NCBI RefSeq assembly: GCF_030644365.1 | Contig: NZ_CP130058.1 | Location: forward strand, 1,240,001-1,304,000 | Source: Schaalia sp. HMT-172 | Lineage (GTDB): Bacteria > Actinomycetota > Actinomycetes > Actinomycetales > Actinomycetaceae | DNA length: 64,000 nt | Reading direction: 5' to 3' | Part shown: in pieces, positions 11,717-44,573 of the stretch | Position numbering within the stretch: position 1 is the stretch's first letter | Layout of the letters: each line of letters starts with the position of its first letter | Program-made: the position numbers and the translations under genes | Notes under the pieces: generated by a model | Databases searched by the model: none | Told to the model about the DNA's origin: nothing | The model's input: only the letters and a program-made list of their open reading frames with translations

Positions 11717-12672
11717 GGTGTCACATCCAAAAACTTGTGCGTGCTCATCTTCTTGTCGTCCCCATCCGAGCTATCCTCGCCGGTGGACGCATGCGCGCCG
11801 GCGTTGTCGCGGCGCTCGAACCCCTTGCCGAAGTGCTTTTCGATCATCGACTGGATGACCATCAGCAGGCTCGTAATCACCAGGTACCAGATCGCGGCTG
11901 CGATCAGGAGCGGCACGGGGGCGAAGGTCGCCTGGCCGCGCTGACGCGCGATGAAGGTGAGCTCAAGCGTGAAGGGAATCGCCGACACAAGGGAGGTGGT
12001 CTTGAGCATCGAGATCGTCTCGTTGCCGATCGGGGGCACGATGACGCGCATCGCCTGGGGCAGGATGATCCTGCGGAAGATCGTCGCCCGCGGCATGCCC
12101 AGGGCCGTCGCCGCCTCCCACTGGCCCTTCGAGACGCTCAGCAGGCCCGCGCGCATGATCTCCGCGAGGTACGCGCCCTCGTTGAGGCCCAGGCCCACGA
12201 ACGCCATCCAGAAGGGCGTGAAGTAGGTCGCCGTATTGAAGCTGACCTCCCAGCCCCACAGCGTGCCGAGGAACGGCACCCCAACGGACAGTGACGGGTA
12301 GAGCGTGGGCAGAAGTGACCAGAAGATCAGCTGCGTGTAGATAGGCGTCCCACGGAAGAACCAGATGTAGGCCATCGCCACCCAGCGCAGGACCGGGTTG
12401 ACCGACTGGCGCATGATCGCCATCGTGATGGCGAGGACCGTACCCACCGCCATCGCGAGGACCGTCAGGATGATCGTGAAGGCGACGCCCTGCATGATCG
12501 AGGCGGAGAAGAGCCACTGGAACACGACGTTCCATTGGAAATTCACGTTGGTGATCAGGCCGTGAATGGCCATTGCCGCGAGGATAGCGACGATGATCGC
12601 GCTGACCCACCTCCCCGGCCGGGGGACGGGTTTGGCGTCGAGCAGCTTGACGCCGTCTTTCATGTGTGCCAT
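11713..12672 (-). CDS. Polar amino-acid ABC transporter, permease
   Basis: 319 residues with about five to six membrane segments. The HisM/GlnP-type core contains the EAA loop, seen as [29 protein letters not shown], followed by [19 protein letters not shown]. The N-terminal ~35 residues are cytosolic and the C-terminal ~45 are charged, an extension beyond the family core. It starts 7 nt after the stop of the neighbouring binding protein and overlaps the ATPase gene by 4 nt, so all three are one transcript. As the only permease gene, it presumably forms a homodimeric channel. Confidence 0.92.
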
Positions 12673-36905: not shown

Positions 36906-37760
36906 CTAGCCTAGCCGAGTCCGAGCCAACCACCGCGCATGCTCCTTCGGCATCGGGGGAGTGGTGCCCCCAAAGACCGGGCACAGGGAACGCACGCCGC
37001 ACCAGTTGCACAGCGGGTTCTTGCGCGCAGCGAAAGAATCGTTCTCAATATCGGACTCGATGCGCGCCCACAGCTGATCGATATGTCGCTCGAAGGCACG
37101 AATATCGTCGGCCACCGGATCGAACGTGATCACCTGCCCGGCACGCAGATACACCAGCTGCATGCGCGCCGGCAGCCTCCTCGTTCGCGCCAGAAGCAGC
37201 GCGTAGAAACGCATCTGGTACAGGGCCTCGTCCACATAGCGCGGACCGGGAGCCTTGCCCGTCTTATAGTCGACGACGCGCAGGCGCCCGTCCGGGGCCG
37301 CATCGATGCGGTCGATGAAGCCGAGCAGGCGCACGCCGCCCGCAGTCGTCGTCGTCACGCGCTCCTCGCGCGCGGCTGGCGCGATCCAGCGCGGCTGCTC
37401 GATGGCGAAGTAACCGTCGATCACCCCGCGCGCCTCCTCGAGCCAGGCGTCGCGATCCGCCTCGTCGGCAAACAGCCGAGCAATCGCAGGCGCCTTGTCA
37501 ACCGCCGCCTCGTAGGCGGGGCCCACCTGCGCGCGAGCGGCCTCGGGCGTGCGCTGCTCGGGCGGGAGCGCGAACAGATCCTCAAGGACCGCGTGGACGA
37601 TGGTGCCCAGCGCCTTCGCCCGGGTCTCGGGCTCGCGGTACCCGTCCAGGACGTGGAGCCGATACTGCAGGGGGCAGCGCTCGTATTCCTTCGCGCGCGA
37701 GGCCGACAGGGCGGGGTCCCACGTGCGCGGGCCGGGGGAGGGGGCAATGAGGTCTGTCAT
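36906..37760 (-). CDS. RecB-family (PD-(D/E)XK) exonuclease-like protein
   Basis: 284 residues from the ATG at 37760 (a 10-residue longer form is possible). The nuclease core shows ALGTIVHAVLEDLF near residue 50, then GFIDRIDAAPDGRLRVVDYKTGKAP with the catalytic Asp and Lys, and QMRFYALLLARTR. Four cysteines, one in YERCPLQYRL and three in LCNWCGVRSLCPVF, are placed as in the 4Fe-4S cluster of AddB/Cas4 nucleases. It should cut or trim single-stranded DNA in repair. The gene is divergent from trmI by 79 nt, as in mycobacteria (RecB-like gene beside trmI). No other Cas gene is present, so a CRISPR link is not supported. Confidence 0.9.
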   Translation of the reverse strand: MTDLIAPSPGPRTWDPALSASRAKEYERCPLQYRLHVLDGYREPETRAKALGTIVHAVLEDLFALPPEQRTPEAARAQVGPAYEAAVDKAPAIARLFADEADRDAWLEEARGVIDGYFAIEQPRWIAPAAREERVTTTTAGGVRLLGFIDRIDAAPDGRLRVVDYKTGKAPGPRYVDEALYQMRFYALLLARTRRLPARMQLVYLRAGQVITFDPVADDIRAFERHIDQLWARIESDIENDSFAARKNPLCNWCGVRSLCPVFGGTTPPMPKEHARWLARTRLG

Positions 37761-37826
37761 GAATACCACGCTAACCCCCGCCGCCCCCATCTGCGTCCTG
37801 GCAGGGGCCAGACAGGCCCGAAGCGC

Positions 37827-37832
37827 TATTCT
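37827..37832 (+). promoter_or_regulatory. -10 hexamer TATTCT of the trmI-ARC-dop-pup operon
   Basis: TATTCT lies 7 nt before the trmI ATG at 37840, with no ribosome-binding site between, predicting a leaderless message. It would drive the whole overlapping run trmI-ARC-dop and possibly pup-pafA-FKBP. Confidence 0.6.
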
Positions 37833-37839
37833 TTACGTA

Positions 37840-38889
37840 ATGACTATTCAACGTAATAATTCCGAAACAGCCACTGATTATGGCCAACCCACCCGCCGAG
37901 GCCCCCTCGCCGAGGGCGACCGCGTCCAGGTCCGCGACCCGAAGGGGCGCTTCCACCAGGTGATCCTGGTCCGTGGCGGACGCTTCCAGTCCAACCGCGG
38001 CGGATTCAACCACAACGACGTCATCGGCCGCCCCGACGGCCAGGTCATCATCACCGACGAGGGCCGTCAGTTCCAGATTCTGCGCCCCCTCCAGGTCGAC
38101 TACGTCATGTCGATGCCTCGCGGAGCCGCCGTCGTCTACCCCAAGGATGCCGGCGTCATCACCCACATGGGCGACATCTTCCCGGGCGCCACGGTCGTCG
38201 AGGCCGGGGCCGGGTCGGGTGCCCTGTCAATGGCGCTCCTGGACGCCGTCGGCCCGCAGGGGCGCCTGATCTCCGTGGAGCGTCGCCAAGACTTTGCCGA
38301 CATCGCCGCGGCGAACGTGGACCTGTGGTTCGGACGCCGTCACCCCGCGTGGGACCTGCGCGTCGGCGACGTCGACGCGGTGCTGTGGTCAGCCGAGCAG
38401 GGCAGCGTGGACCGCGTGGTCCTCGATATGCTTGCCCCCTGGGAGAACATCGAGGCGATCACGCACGCGCTCATTCCCGGCGGCGTGCTGGTCTGCTACG
38501 TGGCGACGGTGACCCAGATGTCGCGCCTCGTCGAGGACCTGCGCTCCTCGCAGCGCTTCACCGATCCCGTCGCATGGGAGGACATGCGCCGCGAGTGGCA
38601 TCTTGACGGCCTGGCCGTGCGCCCCGAGCACCGCATGGTCGCGCACACCGGATTCCTCGTCGTCACCCGACTGCTTGCCCCCGGCGTCACGCCGCAGGAG
38701 CGTTCGACCCGCCCCGCTAAGGCAGCGGAGGGCCAAGGCGGCGCCTGGGACGACGAGGCGGACTGGTCCTTGGAGAAAGTCGGCCAGCGCGTGAACTCTG
38801 AGAAGAAGGTCCGTAAGGTGCGCCGCGACGTCGTCGCACAGGCCGACACGTGGGCCAGCGAGGGACGCGAGGCACAGACCGATGAATGA
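37840..38889 (+). CDS. trmI: tRNA (adenine(58)-N1)-methyltransferase
   Basis: 349 residues from the ATG at 37840 (an open frame extends upstream into the divergent gene). N-terminal beta domain (EGDRVQVRDPKGRFHQVILV), then the AdoMet-binding Rossmann domain with [21 protein letters not shown] near residue 115, DLRVGDVDAVL and VLDMLAPWE. It methylates A58 in the T loop of tRNAs as a tetramer. The C-terminal ~60 residues are a charged extension seen in actinobacterial members. The stop overlaps the ARC ATPase start by 8 nt; this trmI-ARC linkage is standard in actinobacteria. Confidence 0.93.
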   Translation: MTIQRNNSETATDYGQPTRRGPLAEGDRVQVRDPKGRFHQVILVRGGRFQSNRGGFNHNDVIGRPDGQVIITDEGRQFQILRPLQVDYVMSMPRGAAVVYPKDAGVITHMGDIFPGATVVEAGAGSGALSMALLDAVGPQGRLISVERRQDFADIAAANVDLWFGRRHPAWDLRVGDVDAVLWSAEQGSVDRVVLDMLAPWENIEAITHALIPGGVLVCYVATVTQMSRLVEDLRSSQRFTDPVAWEDMRREWHLDGLAVRPEHRMVAHTGFLVVTRLLAPGVTPQERSTRPAKAAEGQGGAWDDEADWSLEKVGQRVNSEKKVRKVRRDVVAQADTWASEGREAQTDE

Positions 38890-40426
38890 CGCCGACCAGC
38901 GCCTCTCGCTCGAACGGCGCATCGTCTCGCTGGAGGAGAAGAACGGGCGCCTCACGAGCGCTCTGACGGCCGCCCGCACGGAGCTGATCCGCCTTCAGGG
39001 CGAGTTGGCTGACGTGTCACGCCCGCCGCAGACGCTCGCGACCTTCGTGCGAGCCTTCCCGGCGGCGCGCCAGATCGAGGTCGTGACGGGCGGCAAGCGC
39101 ATGCGCGTGGCGGTCTCGCCCAAGCTTGACGTCACCGACCTGTCCTACGGGCAGTGGGTACGCCTGGACGACACGATGATCGCGGTCGCCGCGGACGACT
39201 TCGCGCGCAGCGGGCAGGTCGTCTCCGTCCTGGAGCTCGTGGGCCCCGACCGCGTGCTCGTCGCCGCCGAGGGCGGCGCAGAGACTCTCTTGGAGCTCGC
39301 CGGGCCGCTGCGTCACGGCAACCTGCGCCCCGGGGATTCCCTCGTCGTGGACGCACGCTCGGGTATCGCGCTCGAGCGCATCGTGCGCGAGGACGTTGAG
39401 CAGCTCCTCACCCCCGAGGTGCCCGACGTGACCTACGGGGACATCGGAGGCCTCGACGCGCAGATCGCTCAGGTGCGCGACTCCATCGAGATGCCGTTTA
39501 ATCACCCCGAGCTTTACCGTCAGTTCGGCCTGCGCCCGCCCAAGGGCATCCTGTTGTACGGACCGCCTGGGTCGGGCAAGACCCTCATCGCCAAGGCGGT
39601 CGCGAACTCCCTGTCCCGGCGCGGCGGGGCCTCGACGTTCTTCCTGTCGATCAAGGGCCCGGAGCTCCTCAACAAGTTCGTGGGCGAGACCGAGCGACAG
39701 ATTCGCGCGATCTTCGCCCGCGCGCGCACGCTCGCGGCCGGAGACACCCCCGTCGTCATCTTCTTCGACGAGATGGAGGCGCTGTTCCGCACGCGCGGCA
39801 CGGGCGTGTCCTCCGACGTGGAGACGATGATCGTCCCGCAGCTGTTGGCCGAGATGGACGGCGTCGAGTCCCTCGACAACGTCGTCATCATCGGCGCCTC
39901 CAACCGCGCGGACATGATCGACCCCGCCGTCCTGCGCCCCGGGCGCCTGGACGTGCGCATCCGGGTGGATCGCCCCGACCGCGCGGGCGCCCTCGACATC
40001 TTCTCCAAGTACCTGACCCCTCGGGTCCCGATCCACGCCTCCGAAGTCGCCCGCTTCGGCGGCCTCGATGAGGCCGTGGCGGGGATGATCGAACGCGCCG
40101 TGGACGCGCTGTACACCCGCGATGAGACGACCGCTTTGTTCCTCGCGACGCTCGTGAGCGGCGAACACAAGCGCATCTACCTGGCCGACCTCGTCTCCGG
40201 CGCACTCATCGCGGGGATCGTGGAGCGCGCGAAGAAGTACGCGATCAAGGATGCCCTGAGCGGCAAGGCCGCGGGGCTCACGATGGGTCACCTGCTGCGC
40301 GGCGTGCACGAGGAAATGAACGAGTCGCTGGAGCTGGCAGCGACGTCCTCGCCGGAGGACTGGGCTCGCACGAGCGGGCTCGCGCCCGAGATCGTCAGCG
40401 TCAAGCCGATTGGAGTGGTGAAATGA
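38882..40426 (+). CDS. arc: Proteasome-associated-type AAA ATPase (ARC/Mpa)
   Basis: 514 residues. N-terminal coiled coil (LERRIVSLEEKNGRLTSAL) that in the family binds Pup; two OB-like segments to about residue 175; AAA module with DIGGLDAQIAQVRDSIEMPF, Walker A GPPGSGKTLIAKA near 226, pore loop region FFLSIKGPELLNKFVGETER, Walker B VVIFFDEMEAL near 290 and RPGRLDVRIRVDRPD. The hexamer unfolds pupylated proteins. The C-terminus ends IVSVKPIGVVK: the proteasome-docking tail (Mpa ends GQYL) is absent, fitting the missing prcBA genes. It overlaps trmI by 8 nt and dop by 4 nt. Confidence 0.93.
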   Translation: MNDADQRLSLERRIVSLEEKNGRLTSALTAARTELIRLQGELADVSRPPQTLATFVRAFPAARQIEVVTGGKRMRVAVSPKLDVTDLSYGQWVRLDDTMIAVAADDFARSGQVVSVLELVGPDRVLVAAEGGAETLLELAGPLRHGNLRPGDSLVVDARSGIALERIVREDVEQLLTPEVPDVTYGDIGGLDAQIAQVRDSIEMPFNHPELYRQFGLRPPKGILLYGPPGSGKTLIAKAVANSLSRRGGASTFFLSIKGPELLNKFVGETERQIRAIFARARTLAAGDTPVVIFFDEMEALFRTRGTGVSSDVETMIVPQLLAEMDGVESLDNVVIIGASNRADMIDPAVLRPGRLDVRIRVDRPDRAGALDIFSKYLTPRVPIHASEVARFGGLDEAVAGMIERAVDALYTRDETTALFLATLVSGEHKRIYLADLVSGALIAGIVERAKKYAIKDALSGKAAGLTMGHLLRGVHEEMNESLELAATSSPEDWARTSGLAPEIVSVKPIGVVK

Positions 40427-41943
40427 GCAGCGAACGCATCATCGGGACCGAAACCGAGTACGGCGTCTACCGCCCGGGCGACGCCTGGGCGAACCCGATC
40501 GCCCTGTCCACCCGCGTCGTCTCCGCCTACGGGGAGATCTCGCGCGCCGGGACTGCGGCCGAGGGGGCGGGTGTCGTGCGCTGGGACTACACGGGCGAGG
40601 ATCCGCTCAATGACCTGCGCGGCATGCGCATGTCGCGCGCGGCAGTCGACCCGTCGCTCCTCACGGACGATCCGTACCACCTCGCGCCGTCGGGCGGCTC
40701 CGAGCGCGTCGCACGCCCCACGGCCGAGGAGCTTGCCTTGCCGGCAGCGACGACCGCTGTGCTCACCAACGGCGCGCGCCTGTACGTCGACCACGCCCAC
40801 CCCGAATACTCCGCGCCCGAAACCCTGGGTGCGCGCGACGCCCTCCTGTGGGATCGAGCGGGCGAGGTGATCGCCAGGCGCGTCATGGAGCGCCTGGAGG
40901 CACTGGGCGAAGAGCCCATCGTTCTCGTCAAAAACAACACCGACGGCAAGGGCGCGGCCTACGGCACCCACGAGAACTACCAGATGCCACGCATCACCGA
41001 CCTGGACACAATCGTGCGCGGCCTGACCCCCTTTATGGTCACCCGCCCCGTCATCTGTGGCGCGGGCCGCGTCGGACGCGGGCAAAAGAGCGAGGTCCCC
41101 GGCTTCCAGATGTCTCAGCGCGCGGACTTCGTCGAAAACGAGGTCGGACTCGAGACGACCTTCAACCGCCCGATCATCAATACGCGCGACGAGCCCCACG
41201 CCAACCCCGCACAGTTCCGCCGCCTGCACGTGATCGGCGGAGACGGCAACATGTTCGACGTGTCCGCCTTCCTGCGTTTCGGCACAACCTCCCTGGTGCT
41301 GTGGGCCATCGAGCAGGGCACCGACCTGCGCTGGGACTCCATCGTCATGGACGATCCCGTGCAGGAGACGTGGAATGTCTCCCACCACCCGGACCTCGAC
41401 TATAAGATCGGCACGGCCGGCGGCTCCTACACGGCCGCCGAACTCCAGCAGGTCTACCTCGACCTCGTCCTGGACACCTTCAAGGAGACCGGAACCACGC
41501 CGACGGCGGCGGACCAGGAGATCCTCAGGCTGTGGCAGTCCGTCCTCGACCGCATGCGCACCGACCTCTTCTCGGTGGCAGCCCAGGTCGAGTGGGTCGG
41601 CAAGTACCAGCTGGTCAAGCGCCAGAAGGAACGGGCGGGACTGGACTGGAACGACCCGCGCCTGGCCGCCATCGACTTGCAGTGGGCGGACCTGCGCCCC
41701 AGCCACGGCCTCGTGTTCCGCCTCGCCCAGGCCGGCATGGTGCACCGCCTCGTGTCCGACGAGGAGGTCGAGCGCGCCGCCGACGAGGCACCGACCAACA
41801 CGCGCGCCCACGTGCGCGGATGGGCCGTGCGCAACCGCCCGGACCTGGTCAAGGCCTCGTGGTCGTCGCTCGTTTTCGACCCGGGCCAGGGCGACCTGGT
41901 GCGATTCCCGCTCGCCGACGCCCTCGACACGTCCACCCGCTGA
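40423..41943 (+). CDS. dop: Pup deamidase/depupylase
   Basis: 506 residues, glutamine-synthetase-like fold. Start IIGTETEYGVYRPGD with the nucleotide/metal-binding Glu pair, then the insertion unique to Dop (about residues 37-80), the strand RLYVDHAHPEYSAPE, KNNTDGKGAAYGTHENY, RPIINTRDEPHAN and the C-terminal domain ending FPLADALDTSTR. It deamidates the C-terminal Gln of Pup to Glu and can remove Pup from targets. The ATG overlaps the ARC stop in ATGA. The Pup gene begins 27 nt downstream and ends in Gln, so this activity is needed. Confidence 0.95.
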   Translation: MSSERIIGTETEYGVYRPGDAWANPIALSTRVVSAYGEISRAGTAAEGAGVVRWDYTGEDPLNDLRGMRMSRAAVDPSLLTDDPYHLAPSGGSERVARPTAEELALPAATTAVLTNGARLYVDHAHPEYSAPETLGARDALLWDRAGEVIARRVMERLEALGEEPIVLVKNNTDGKGAAYGTHENYQMPRITDLDTIVRGLTPFMVTRPVICGAGRVGRGQKSEVPGFQMSQRADFVENEVGLETTFNRPIINTRDEPHANPAQFRRLHVIGGDGNMFDVSAFLRFGTTSLVLWAIEQGTDLRWDSIVMDDPVQETWNVSHHPDLDYKIGTAGGSYTAAELQQVYLDLVLDTFKETGTTPTAADQEILRLWQSVLDRMRTDLFSVAAQVEWVGKYQLVKRQKERAGLDWNDPRLAAIDLQWADLRPSHGLVFRLAQAGMVHRLVSDEEVERAADEAPTNTRAHVRGWAVRNRPDLVKASWSSLVFDPGQGDLVRFPLADALDTSTR

Positions 41944-41969
41944 TACGACGACAGAAAGAAGAACACACC

Positions 41970-42146
41970 ATGTCGAACCAGATTTTTGCCGGCACCCCTA
42001 CGCCCGACGACGACGCCACCGAGGCGGCGGGTCAGGTCCAGGCCCGTACCTCCTCGATTGACTCCCTCCTCGACGAGATCGACTCCGTCCTCGAAACGAA
42101 CGCCGAGGCCTTCGTGCAGGGCTTCGTCCAGAAGGGCGGCCAGTGA
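41970..42146 (+). CDS. pup: Prokaryotic ubiquitin-like protein Pup
   Basis: 58 residues, disordered N-terminus (MSNQIFAGTPTPDDD) and a helical C-terminal half (SIDSLLDEIDSVLETNAEAFVQGF) that should pair with the ARC coiled coil. It ends KGGQ: the Gly-Gly motif and a terminal Gln that Dop must convert to Glu before PafA can attach it to lysines. It is slightly shorter than the mycobacterial protein (64). ATG start; the upstream sequence AGAAAGAAG is a modest ribosome site. One base separates its stop from the pafA GTG, leaving no room for prcBA. Confidence 0.96.
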   Translation: MSNQIFAGTPTPDDDATEAAGQVQARTSSIDSLLDEIDSVLETNAEAFVQGFVQKGGQ

Positions 42147-42147
42147 C

Positions 42148-43533
42148 GTGAGGCGGAGAGTTTTCGGCATCGAAACGGAGTACGGGCTGACGGCCGCGTC
42201 CCCGTCCGGAGCGGCGCCGATGGACGCCGAGCACGCCGCTCGCCAGCTGTTCGAGCCCCTCCTGCACCAGGGCCGTTCCTCCAACCTATTCCTGCGTAAC
42301 GGCGGTCGACTCTACCTGGACGTGGGCGCCCACCCCGAGTACGCCACCGCCGAGTGCGACCGGCTCGAGGATCTCCTCGAGCAGGACCGCGCCGGTTCCG
42401 TCATGCTCGCCGACCTGGCCGTTTCTGCCGACGAGGCGTTGGCGGAGCTGGGCACCGACCTGTCGCTGCACCTCTTCCGCAACAACCTGGACTCGCAGGG
42501 CAACTCGTATGGCTGCCACGAGAACTACCTGCTGCACCGCAGGCGCGACTTCCGCCAGGTCGCCGACGCGCTCGTCGCCTTCTTCGTGACCCGCCAGATC
42601 CTGGTGGGTAACGGGTGGATCAACACGGGAGCCGCGACGCCGCGCCTGCAGTTCTCCCAACGCGCCGACCAGATGTGGGACGCCGTGTCCTCGGCCACTA
42701 CCCGCTCGCGCCCCATCATCAACACGCGCGACGAGGCCTTGGCCGACTCGGGCGCGTACCGGCGCATGCACGTCATCGTCGGCGATACGAACGTCGCGGA
42801 GCCGACGACGGCGCTGAAGGTCGGCATGACCGAGCTTCTCATCCACGCCATCGAGGACGGGCTCCAGATCGAAGACCTCTCTCTCGCCGATCCGATGCGG
42901 GCCATTCGAGAAATCAACGCCGACTTGACCGGCTCCACCCCGATCGAGCTGGCCTCGGGCCGCACGACGAGCGCCGTGGTCCTCCAGCGCGAAATCCGCG
43001 AACGTGTCCTCGCGCGAATCGGCGTCGCCGAGCTCGACCCGATGCGTGCCTACGTCGTCGACCTGTGGGGCCGAGGCCTCGACGCCATCGCGAGCGGCGA
43101 CTGGAGCGGGGTCGACACCGAACTCGACGTCGCCATCAAGCGCTCGCTGCTGGAGTCCTACTGCGCGCGCACCGGCGCTGCCCTGAGCGACCCGCGAGTA
43201 GCCCGCCTCGAGCTGTCCTATTCGGACATCACGGCGCAGGGCCTGCGCGAGCGCATGGAGCGCGCCGGCCTCATGCGACGCCTCACGACGCCGGAGGGGG
43301 TGGCCCGCGCCACCACCGTGGCGCCGGCTACGACGCGCGCGTGCCTACGTGGTCGCATCATCGCGGCAGCGGAGGACGCGCGCGCCGACCTCAGCGTCGA
43401 CTGGGTGCACGTGCGCCTCGACGATTCCTCGGCCATTCCGCTCTCCCTGCAGGATCCACTGGCCACCTCGGACCCGCGCGTCGATGGACTCATCGCGCAG
43501 ATCACCGCGTCGTCTCCTACGATTCCGGCATGA
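42148..43533 (+). CDS. pafA: Pup ligase (proteasome accessory factor A)
   Basis: 461 residues from the GTG at 42148, where the family N-terminus RRRVFGIETEYGLT begins; an open frame continues upstream through pup but is not used. Glutamine-synthetase-like fold with GGRLYLDVGAHPEYATAEC, the ATP/Mg site LFRNNLDSQGNSYGCHENYL, and SRPIINTRDEALADS. The C-terminal domain that binds Pup runs from about 400. It joins the Pup C-terminal Glu to substrate lysines using ATP. It overlaps the FKBP gene by 4 nt. In proteasome-bearing relatives prcB and prcA separate pup from pafA. Confidence 0.95.
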   Translation: MRRRVFGIETEYGLTAASPSGAAPMDAEHAARQLFEPLLHQGRSSNLFLRNGGRLYLDVGAHPEYATAECDRLEDLLEQDRAGSVMLADLAVSADEALAELGTDLSLHLFRNNLDSQGNSYGCHENYLLHRRRDFRQVADALVAFFVTRQILVGNGWINTGAATPRLQFSQRADQMWDAVSSATTRSRPIINTRDEALADSGAYRRMHVIVGDTNVAEPTTALKVGMTELLIHAIEDGLQIEDLSLADPMRAIREINADLTGSTPIELASGRTTSAVVLQREIRERVLARIGVAELDPMRAYVVDLWGRGLDAIASGDWSGVDTELDVAIKRSLLESYCARTGAALSDPRVARLELSYSDITAQGLRERMERAGLMRRLTTPEGVARATTVAPATTRACLRGRIIAAAEDARADLSVDWVHVRLDDSSAIPLSLQDPLATSDPRVDGLIAQITASSPTIPA

Positions 43534-44573
43534 GCTCAGCTTCGCAGACCCCCGACTCCTCGCGTGCCCGACGCGCGAAAGGCTCCTCGCAGCGCGCTGC
43601 CGCGAGAGGTGAGCGCTCGCGCGGCTCCTCGCGTGCTTCGCTGCTCGGACGCCTCCTCCTCGCCCTGGTCCTCCTCGCGGCGGGAGGCGGCATCGCCTGG
43701 TGGGCTCTCCACCCGGCCGAGCCGAGCGCGACGGAGGTAACGGCCGAGCCGAGCCCGCAGTCGGCGCCGCTTCCCCTCTTCGAGCGCGTCGCCGTCTCGG
43801 GCCGCGTCGGCGCGACGCCGACGATCGAGATCAAGGCCCCTCTCGAAGTCACGGGAACGAAGGCGACCACCCTCGTCGAGGGCAGCGGGCGTGACATCAC
43901 CGAGGGCTCTCCCGTACTGGTCGCGATCACCGCCTTCGACGGCGAGACCGGGCAGACCCTGTCGGAGTCGGGGCGCCCGCAGCTGAGCCTGGGCATCGTG
44001 GGAAGCGACGTCATCGGCGACGAGCTGACCTCCATGGTCGTGGGCCAGCGTGAGGGCACGCGCATTGTCGCCTTCCGCACGATCGCGCCGGGTGCCGGCG
44101 CTCCGGGAGCCACCAGCGGCATTGAGGTCGACGTCATCGACATCCTGCCTTCGATCGCCATGGGGACTGCGGTGGATGCCACGGTCGGCCCCCTGAGCGT
44201 CGAAATGAGCCCGGAGGGCCCGATCATCACGCATTCGACCACCGTTCCCGACGGGGTCACGACGCAGGCCCTCATTAAAGGCGACGGCGTACAGGTCCAC
44301 GAGAGCGATCGGGTGGTCGCCCAGTTCACGGTGCTCGGCTGGACGGACGGCGTCGTGCGCGTCTCCACCTGGGAGACGGGCGTCCCGCAGGTCATCAACC
44401 TCAGCACGGCCATGCGTGGCCTCCAGACCGCGCTGGTCGATCAGAAGGTCGGGTCGCGCCTGGCGATCACGATCCCGCCGGACCTGGCGGCCGGCGACGA
44501 TACGCTGTGCATCGTCATCGATATTCTCGGCACCGAACCGAGCCTGAGCGGCGACGAATCATCCCAGTCCTGA
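43530..44573 (+). CDS. FKBP-type peptidyl-prolyl isomerase-like membrane/secreted protein
   Basis: 347 residues, ATG overlapping the pafA stop. A Ser/Arg-rich cytosolic N-terminus is followed by one membrane helix at about 39-62 (LLLALVLLAAGGGIAWWAL) and two FKBP-like domains (about 100-195 and 215-335; for example TTLVEGSGRDITEGSPVLV with ELTSMVVGQREGTRIVAF). Aromatic residues of the FKBP active site look sparse, so catalytic activity is uncertain. FKBP genes next to pafA are usual in several actinobacteria, so the link is conserved even without the proteasome. It is likely an extracytoplasmic chaperone. Confidence 0.8.
   Translation: MSSASQTPDSSRARRAKGSSQRAAARGERSRGSSRASLLGRLLLALVLLAAGGGIAWWALHPAEPSATEVTAEPSPQSAPLPLFERVAVSGRVGATPTIEIKAPLEVTGTKATTLVEGSGRDITEGSPVLVAITAFDGETGQTLSESGRPQLSLGIVGSDVIGDELTSMVVGQREGTRIVAFRTIAPGAGAPGATSGIEVDVIDILPSIAMGTAVDATVGPLSVEMSPEGPIITHSTTVPDGVTTQALIKGDGVQVHESDRVVAQFTVLGWTDGVVRVSTWETGVPQVINLSTAMRGLQTALVDQKVGSRLAITIPPDLAAGDDTLCIVIDILGTEPSLSGDESSQS

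Follow-up and report, generated by a model that had tools for sequence, protein, structure and literature searches.

We analysed a 64,000-nt stretch of the Schaalia sp. HMT-172 genome (contig NZ_CP130058.1, positions 1,240,001 to 1,304,000 of the forward strand; ‘the window’, whose numbering is used below) that carries the genes of a pupylation system. Genes for the proteasomal-type ATPase ARC, the deamidase/depupylase Dop, the tag protein Pup and the Pup ligase PafA form a single run on the same strand (38882–43533, Table 1). All four are intact, and their products exceed the family cut-offs (curated NCBIfam cut-offs for ARC, Dop and PafA, the Pfam cut-off for Pup). An earlier note, made from the letters of the window alone, had called the four genes intact and overlapping; the second part does not hold for all of them, as 26 bases lie between dop and pup.

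Alignments with solved ARC/Mpa, Dop and PafA chains showed that the nucleotide-binding, pore-loop and ligase blocks are conserved. The AAA module of the window ARC has GPPGSGKT, IFFDEME and KFVGE aligned with the solved ATPase, and the window PafA keeps the Asp of LYLDVG (Asn at the same place in the 4bjr chain). Residues 12–58 of Pup match the solved Pup of PDB 7px9 chain G; with its GGQ end this Pup would need deamidation by Dop, as read from the family.

In proteasome-bearing relatives the gene order is PUP-PRCB-PRCA-PAFA. The earlier note had read a single base between the pup stop and the pafA start of the window, and an ARC ending in SVKPIGVVK with no GQYL-type C-terminus; both readings are correct. 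The ARC stop overlaps the in-frame dop start (ATGA), and a GGAG (40412–40415) within the final ARC codons precedes the dop ATG by 7 bases. On the other side, the end of a TrmI-type gene overlaps the ARC start (38882–38889).

Table 1. Features of the pupylation locus and its neighbours in the window
Feature	Position	Strand	Evidence and remarks
ARC, proteasomal-type AAA ATPase, 514 aa	38882..40426	+	TIGR03689 681.9 bits (cut-off 504.75); best PDB match 7ljf (ARC/Mpa), E 7.8e-148
ARC residues 51-167, two proteasomal-ATPase OB domains	39032..39382	+	Pfam PF17758, PF16450
ARC residues 223-363, AAA module	39548..39970	+	Pfam PF00004; alignment to solved ATPase
ARC C-terminus, 18 residues after DWAR, without GQYL-type tail	40370..40423	+	Sequence reading
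Dop, deamidase/depupylase, 506 aa	40423..41943	+	TIGR03688 546.8 bits (cut-off 492.3); PDB 9cku, 4b0r
Pup, 58 aa, C-terminus GGQ	41970..42146	+	Pfam PF05639 67.4 bits (cut-off 27); PDB 7px9 chain G
Single intergenic base, pup stop / pafA start	42147..42147		Slot of prcB-prcA in proteasome-bearing relatives
PafA, Pup ligase, GTG start, 461 aa	42148..43533	+	TIGR03686 567.7 bits (cut-off 551.3)
PD-(D/E)XK (RecB-like) nuclease	36906..37790	-	Pfam PF12705 138.7 bits; frequent left neighbour, beside many family core loci
TrmI-type tRNA methyltransferase	37549..38889	+	Pfam PF14801, PF08704; conserved neighbour; true start probably further in
FKBP-type prolyl isomerase	43563..44573	+	PF00254 21.6 bits (cut-off 21.1) on open frame 42615-44573; start approximate; frequent right neighbour

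The 20S core is missing well beyond this locus. The profile PF00227 (proteasome alpha/beta, HslV) matched nothing in the window's closed genome of 2.53 Mb (99.99% complete), in any of 35 genomes of the same genus or in any of 151 genomes of the same family (20 of the 151 are named; the draw is taken as identical to that of the family ARC search, run with the same settings). The search was positive in 10 of 14 control genomes and in 198 of the 396 genomes of the order. A hidden proteasome is thus rejected, and the proposal of the earlier note, pupylation by intact enzymes with prcA and prcB absent from the whole genome, is borne out. ARC itself (E 1e-90 or better) was found in 143/151 family genomes and 352/396 order genomes, so that about 154 order genomes have ARC without a core (352 minus 198; both lists compared by hand). 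Among 44 core loci of the family covered by stretches of at least 10 kb, prcA or prcB was seen in none and all four genes in 42; the exceptions are L039, where tblastn gave no Pup match, and L053, whose stretch matched neither Pup nor PafA.

A QYL-tailed ARC paralogue would also have contradicted the earlier note. The search of the window genome gave no second ARC, only two weaker AAA matches: open frames of 676 aa (FtsH-like by reading, ending NENEEQA) and 412 aa (ending DWVVR), both without a docking tail, and such a paralogue is rejected. The proteasome activator Bpa (PF10759) had no match in this genome either. In a survey of 46 chosen genomes, Bpa was matched in 0/20 of the family, 1/7 of the other proteasome-free genomes and 12/19 of the proteasome-bearing ones. 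Strict co-occurrence of Bpa with the proteasome, as claimed in the portion of a 2021 review available to us (PMC8223512), was not seen in this survey.

Our survey of ARC C-termini covers 199 rows (182 genomes), chosen to cover genera and not at random; 99 rows come from 82 of the 143 family genomes with ARC. Short duplicates, L040 (a 200-base stretch) and loci without listed positions (e.g. both ARCs of G434, G454 and G469) were left out. Genomes were labelled for the proteasome by the PF00227 searches of genus, family and order. A core match together with a YL ending was present in 39 rows, a core match without YL in 11, no core match but YL or FL in 22 and neither in 127. Since mismatches occur in both directions, the state of the ARC tail predicts that of the proteasome only loosely, and the losses of tail and core are not locked together. 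This uncoupling is a contribution of the present analysis. The earlier note had treated missing core and missing tail as two independent losses reinforcing each other, which these counts do not support. The window ARC does lack the C-terminal proteasome motif, but that absence is not a dependable criterion, and ‘tail loss follows core loss’ is rejected as a law by tail-less core-bearing loci and by tail-bearing core-free rows.

In eight of the 11 core-bearing tail-less rows (L124, L125, L126, L128–L131, L134), prcB and prcA stand in the ARC locus itself, and all eight keep the Thr-Thr block of prcB and the Lys block of prcA; the stretches read of L132, L133 and L135 showed no core genes. Four of the loci, L124, L125, L126 (genomes G400, G204, G092) and L134 (G071), combine an intact-looking 20S core with a tail-less ARC and no Bpa match, and no tail-bearing activator was found for the core of these genomes. 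Conversely, proteasome-free genomes with an ARC tail (GYL or DYL) include Georgenia subflava, G. thermotolerans, G. ruanii, two further Georgenia, G. satyanarayanai (three records) and Oceanitalea stevensii; for two of the G. satyanarayanai records (L239, L241), the flank showed neither Pup nor PafA. Among 80 named loci, these nine records included, 64 have prcB and prcA, and all 64 ARCs end in GQYL, so the published tail rule (see below) holds on the proteasome-bearing side of that set. A sign test on independent pairs (eight of them lying on supported branches; median p of 0.5) is compatible both with a link between tail and core and with none, and we claim no correlation.

Several other endings deserve mention. 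Genome G369 (L074, L219), the one proteasome-free genome outside the family with a Bpa match, has no core match, and both its ARC and its Bpa end in TGQYL; this looks like a recent core loss, or else an assembly gap (30 contigs). The two cases read from group f6 showed no co-variation of Bpa and ARC tails (Bpa GNYL; ARC SDLV or DPDLL); a third f6 Bpa (L223) was missed by gene calling. Proteasome-free ARCs of L037, L061–L063, L065 and L209–L213 end in GLI, SLI or ELI; the linker before this end varies, and several have an upstream Trp. These endings (groups g2, g7, g10, g15, g116) are possibly an altered tail or a new docking motif; in g2 the last ARC codons also hold the dop start, and the dop start nearest to the ARC stop in g10 and g116 is 11–96 bases past the first base of that stop.

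The order of the losses was read from an ARC tree (FastTree only). All 99 ARC rows of the family fall to one side of a branch with support 94 (under the 95 mark), have no core match and show YL-type ends in several subclades. By parsimony, the core would therefore have been lost no later than the base of the family, and the docking tail afterwards, in the branch leading to the window. Group f11 suggests the opposite order: three core-bearing tail-less ARCs (L124–L126) sit among tail-less proteasome-free ARCs, and a fourth core-bearing f11 ARC (L127, ending GQYL) is placed elsewhere in the tree.

In the genus of the window, translational coupling appears to have taken the place of the tail. All 15 loci read, from the 35 genus genomes, have an in-frame dop start overlapping the ARC stop (ATGA or GTGA), so compaction onto dop translation may also account for the truncation of ARC. 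The last ARC residues vary within the genus.

The Georgenia/Oceanitalea side of the family presents a different picture. Every one of the 11 ARC rows of groups g119 (Georgenia), g111 and g113 ends in GYL and has P at residue -6; the five g8 rows all end in DYL. Identity in the g119, g111 and g113 rows is 0.09–0.22 at positions -15, -20, -25 and -30 (counted from the end, unaligned), and the stretch after DWAR spans 50 to 100 residues in the 11 rows (38–41 in 17 measured of 18 core-bearing rows). A plausible dop start lies 11–24 bases past the first base of the ARC stop in the g119, g111, g8, g123 and g127 loci checked, and some hundreds of bases past the ARC stop in L057 (g113). Thus the dop start does not force the ARC ending in these groups; L048 and L179 (ending DDYL), with no dop motif within 900 bases, do not enter into this conclusion. 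Tentatively, the proteasome-free ARC tail could be under selection here for a partner or job other than the 20S core, i.e. a second docking client or a use within the ring, later given up in the lineage of the window; we regard this as possible, though short of an even chance.

Three reviews bear on the locus, each consulted in part. According to the portion available of a 2012 review (PMC3511204), some actinobacteria without proteasome genes keep the ATPase, pup then stands directly before pafA, and the ATPases of such species lack the C-terminal docking motif, implying another role. The accessible text of PMC8223512 considers the loss of the proteasome likely secondary and cites ferritin disassembly as a proposed non-degradative role in Corynebacterium glutamicum; what we saw of a 2025 review (PMC12288473) agrees. 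The window locus is a further case of this known class and not new in kind. Like the C. glutamicum system, it has the four genes with pup immediately ahead of pafA, lacks prcBA and has an ATPase devoid of the docking motif, and the analogy drawn by the earlier note is supported. Its description of the lineage as ‘another example’ of proteasome-free pupylation is right for the case itself but undersells it, given that none of 151 family genomes has a core match and that the rule was in print in 2012. With the Pup-proteasome system (mycobacteria and about half of the order genomes searched) the window shares the tagging enzymes and the gene order apart from prcBA; unlike that system, it has no 20S core, no Bpa match and no GQYL on ARC.

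We consider it probable that the locus encodes a proteasome-free pupylation system like that of C. glutamicum, used for Pup-directed unfolding or disassembly together with depupylation. The gene set, the intact domains and the absence of core and tail are direct observations. As in their families, Dop would deamidate PupQ, PafA would ligate Pup to lysines of target proteins and the ARC hexamer would bind Pup by its N-terminal coiled coil. ARC would then presumably pull on the tagged target, leading to unfolding or disassembly, and Dop, a depupylase by family, would remove Pup so that tag and target might be reused.

Several points weigh against this interpretation. It is built on genes, and tagged proteins may instead be delivered to another protease; the single ancestral core loss leans on parsimony and on the FastTree tree. 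In addition, ferritin disassembly as in C. glutamicum cannot safely be assumed here: the sole ferritin-family (PF00210) protein of the window genome, of 156 aa, is Dps-like by reading and no more than a putative ferritin target, and 8 of the 35 genus genomes, among them at least one with ARC (G033), have no PF00210 match. Ferritin as a general target is weakened accordingly.

An unlikely alternative to Pup-directed unfolding is that Pup is still a degradation tag and that ARC passes pupylated proteins to another protease, e.g. ClpP or FtsH, by a contact other than the lost tail. The unfoldase parts of ARC are intact and the FtsH-like open frame is present, but no docking element was identified, and an ARC that ends so soon after DWAR, with last residues varying in the genus, argues against such a contact; this is weak evidence, Clp and Lon not having been surveyed. 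It is still less probable that the core loss left pupylation useless and that the system is decaying. ARC has no match at E 1e-90 in 8/151 family and 44/396 order genomes, as decay would have it, but ARC is kept in the great majority of family genomes, all four window proteins are intact with the GGQ end of Pup kept, and FVQGFVQKGGQ ends all 15 Pups read from the genus (the window's own and 14 others). Finally, very divergent proteins can escape profile searches, and a proteasome might have been missed by search or assembly; the genome is closed and nearly complete, the profile that failed throughout the family succeeded in half of the order genomes and in most controls, and the usual slot of the core genes is empty, which makes an overlooked proteasome highly improbable.

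The family is a natural experiment on the purpose of pupylation where no proteasome degrades its targets. The working rule is also corrected, the ARC tail being unsafe for inferring the presence of a proteasome, and the tail-bearing, proteasome-free Georgenia and Oceanitalea are organisms in which to seek another ARC partner. Our literature searches, with subscription journals mostly outside their coverage, returned no report of a tail-bearing ARC in proteasome-free genomes and none of a second ARC cassette in the family.

Such second cassettes occur in other family members: two ARC genes are present in 26 of the 151 genomes. The sample of second loci numbers 23, and in 13 of them (L034, L036, L038, L042, L044, L046, L048, L049, L177, L179, L181, L183, L185), ARC, Dop, Pup and PafA follow in order, as in the window. 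Seven of the other ten are short stretches ending in or after Dop, and L175 reaches the contig end after Dop. The remaining two, L025 (G181) and L030 (G504), have ARC, Pup and PafA in order with no Dop between ARC and Pup (4.5 kb stretch); these loci may rely on the Dop of the first locus. No prc match was found in the stretches read of the 23 loci, and the TrmI and FKBP neighbours are absent. The second-locus ARCs form their own clade of 24 rows (support 97), including that of G439, whose only ARC is of this second type. The Pups are divergent (ends include FVQEGGE and FVQMGGQ) and differ from that of the window, whose genome has a single ARC. Complete second cassettes would thus amount to two parallel tagging systems in one cell.

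The 20 order genomes listed as lacking an ARC match (E 1e-90) include 15 of group f18, and no f18 genome was seen among the ARC-positive ones; the ATPase, perhaps the whole system, may have been lost there. The second cassette of L038 stands just after genes read as rpoB and rpoC. In Georgenia locus L051, a short-chain-dehydrogenase-like gene (by reading; 11960–12640) lies between dop and pup.

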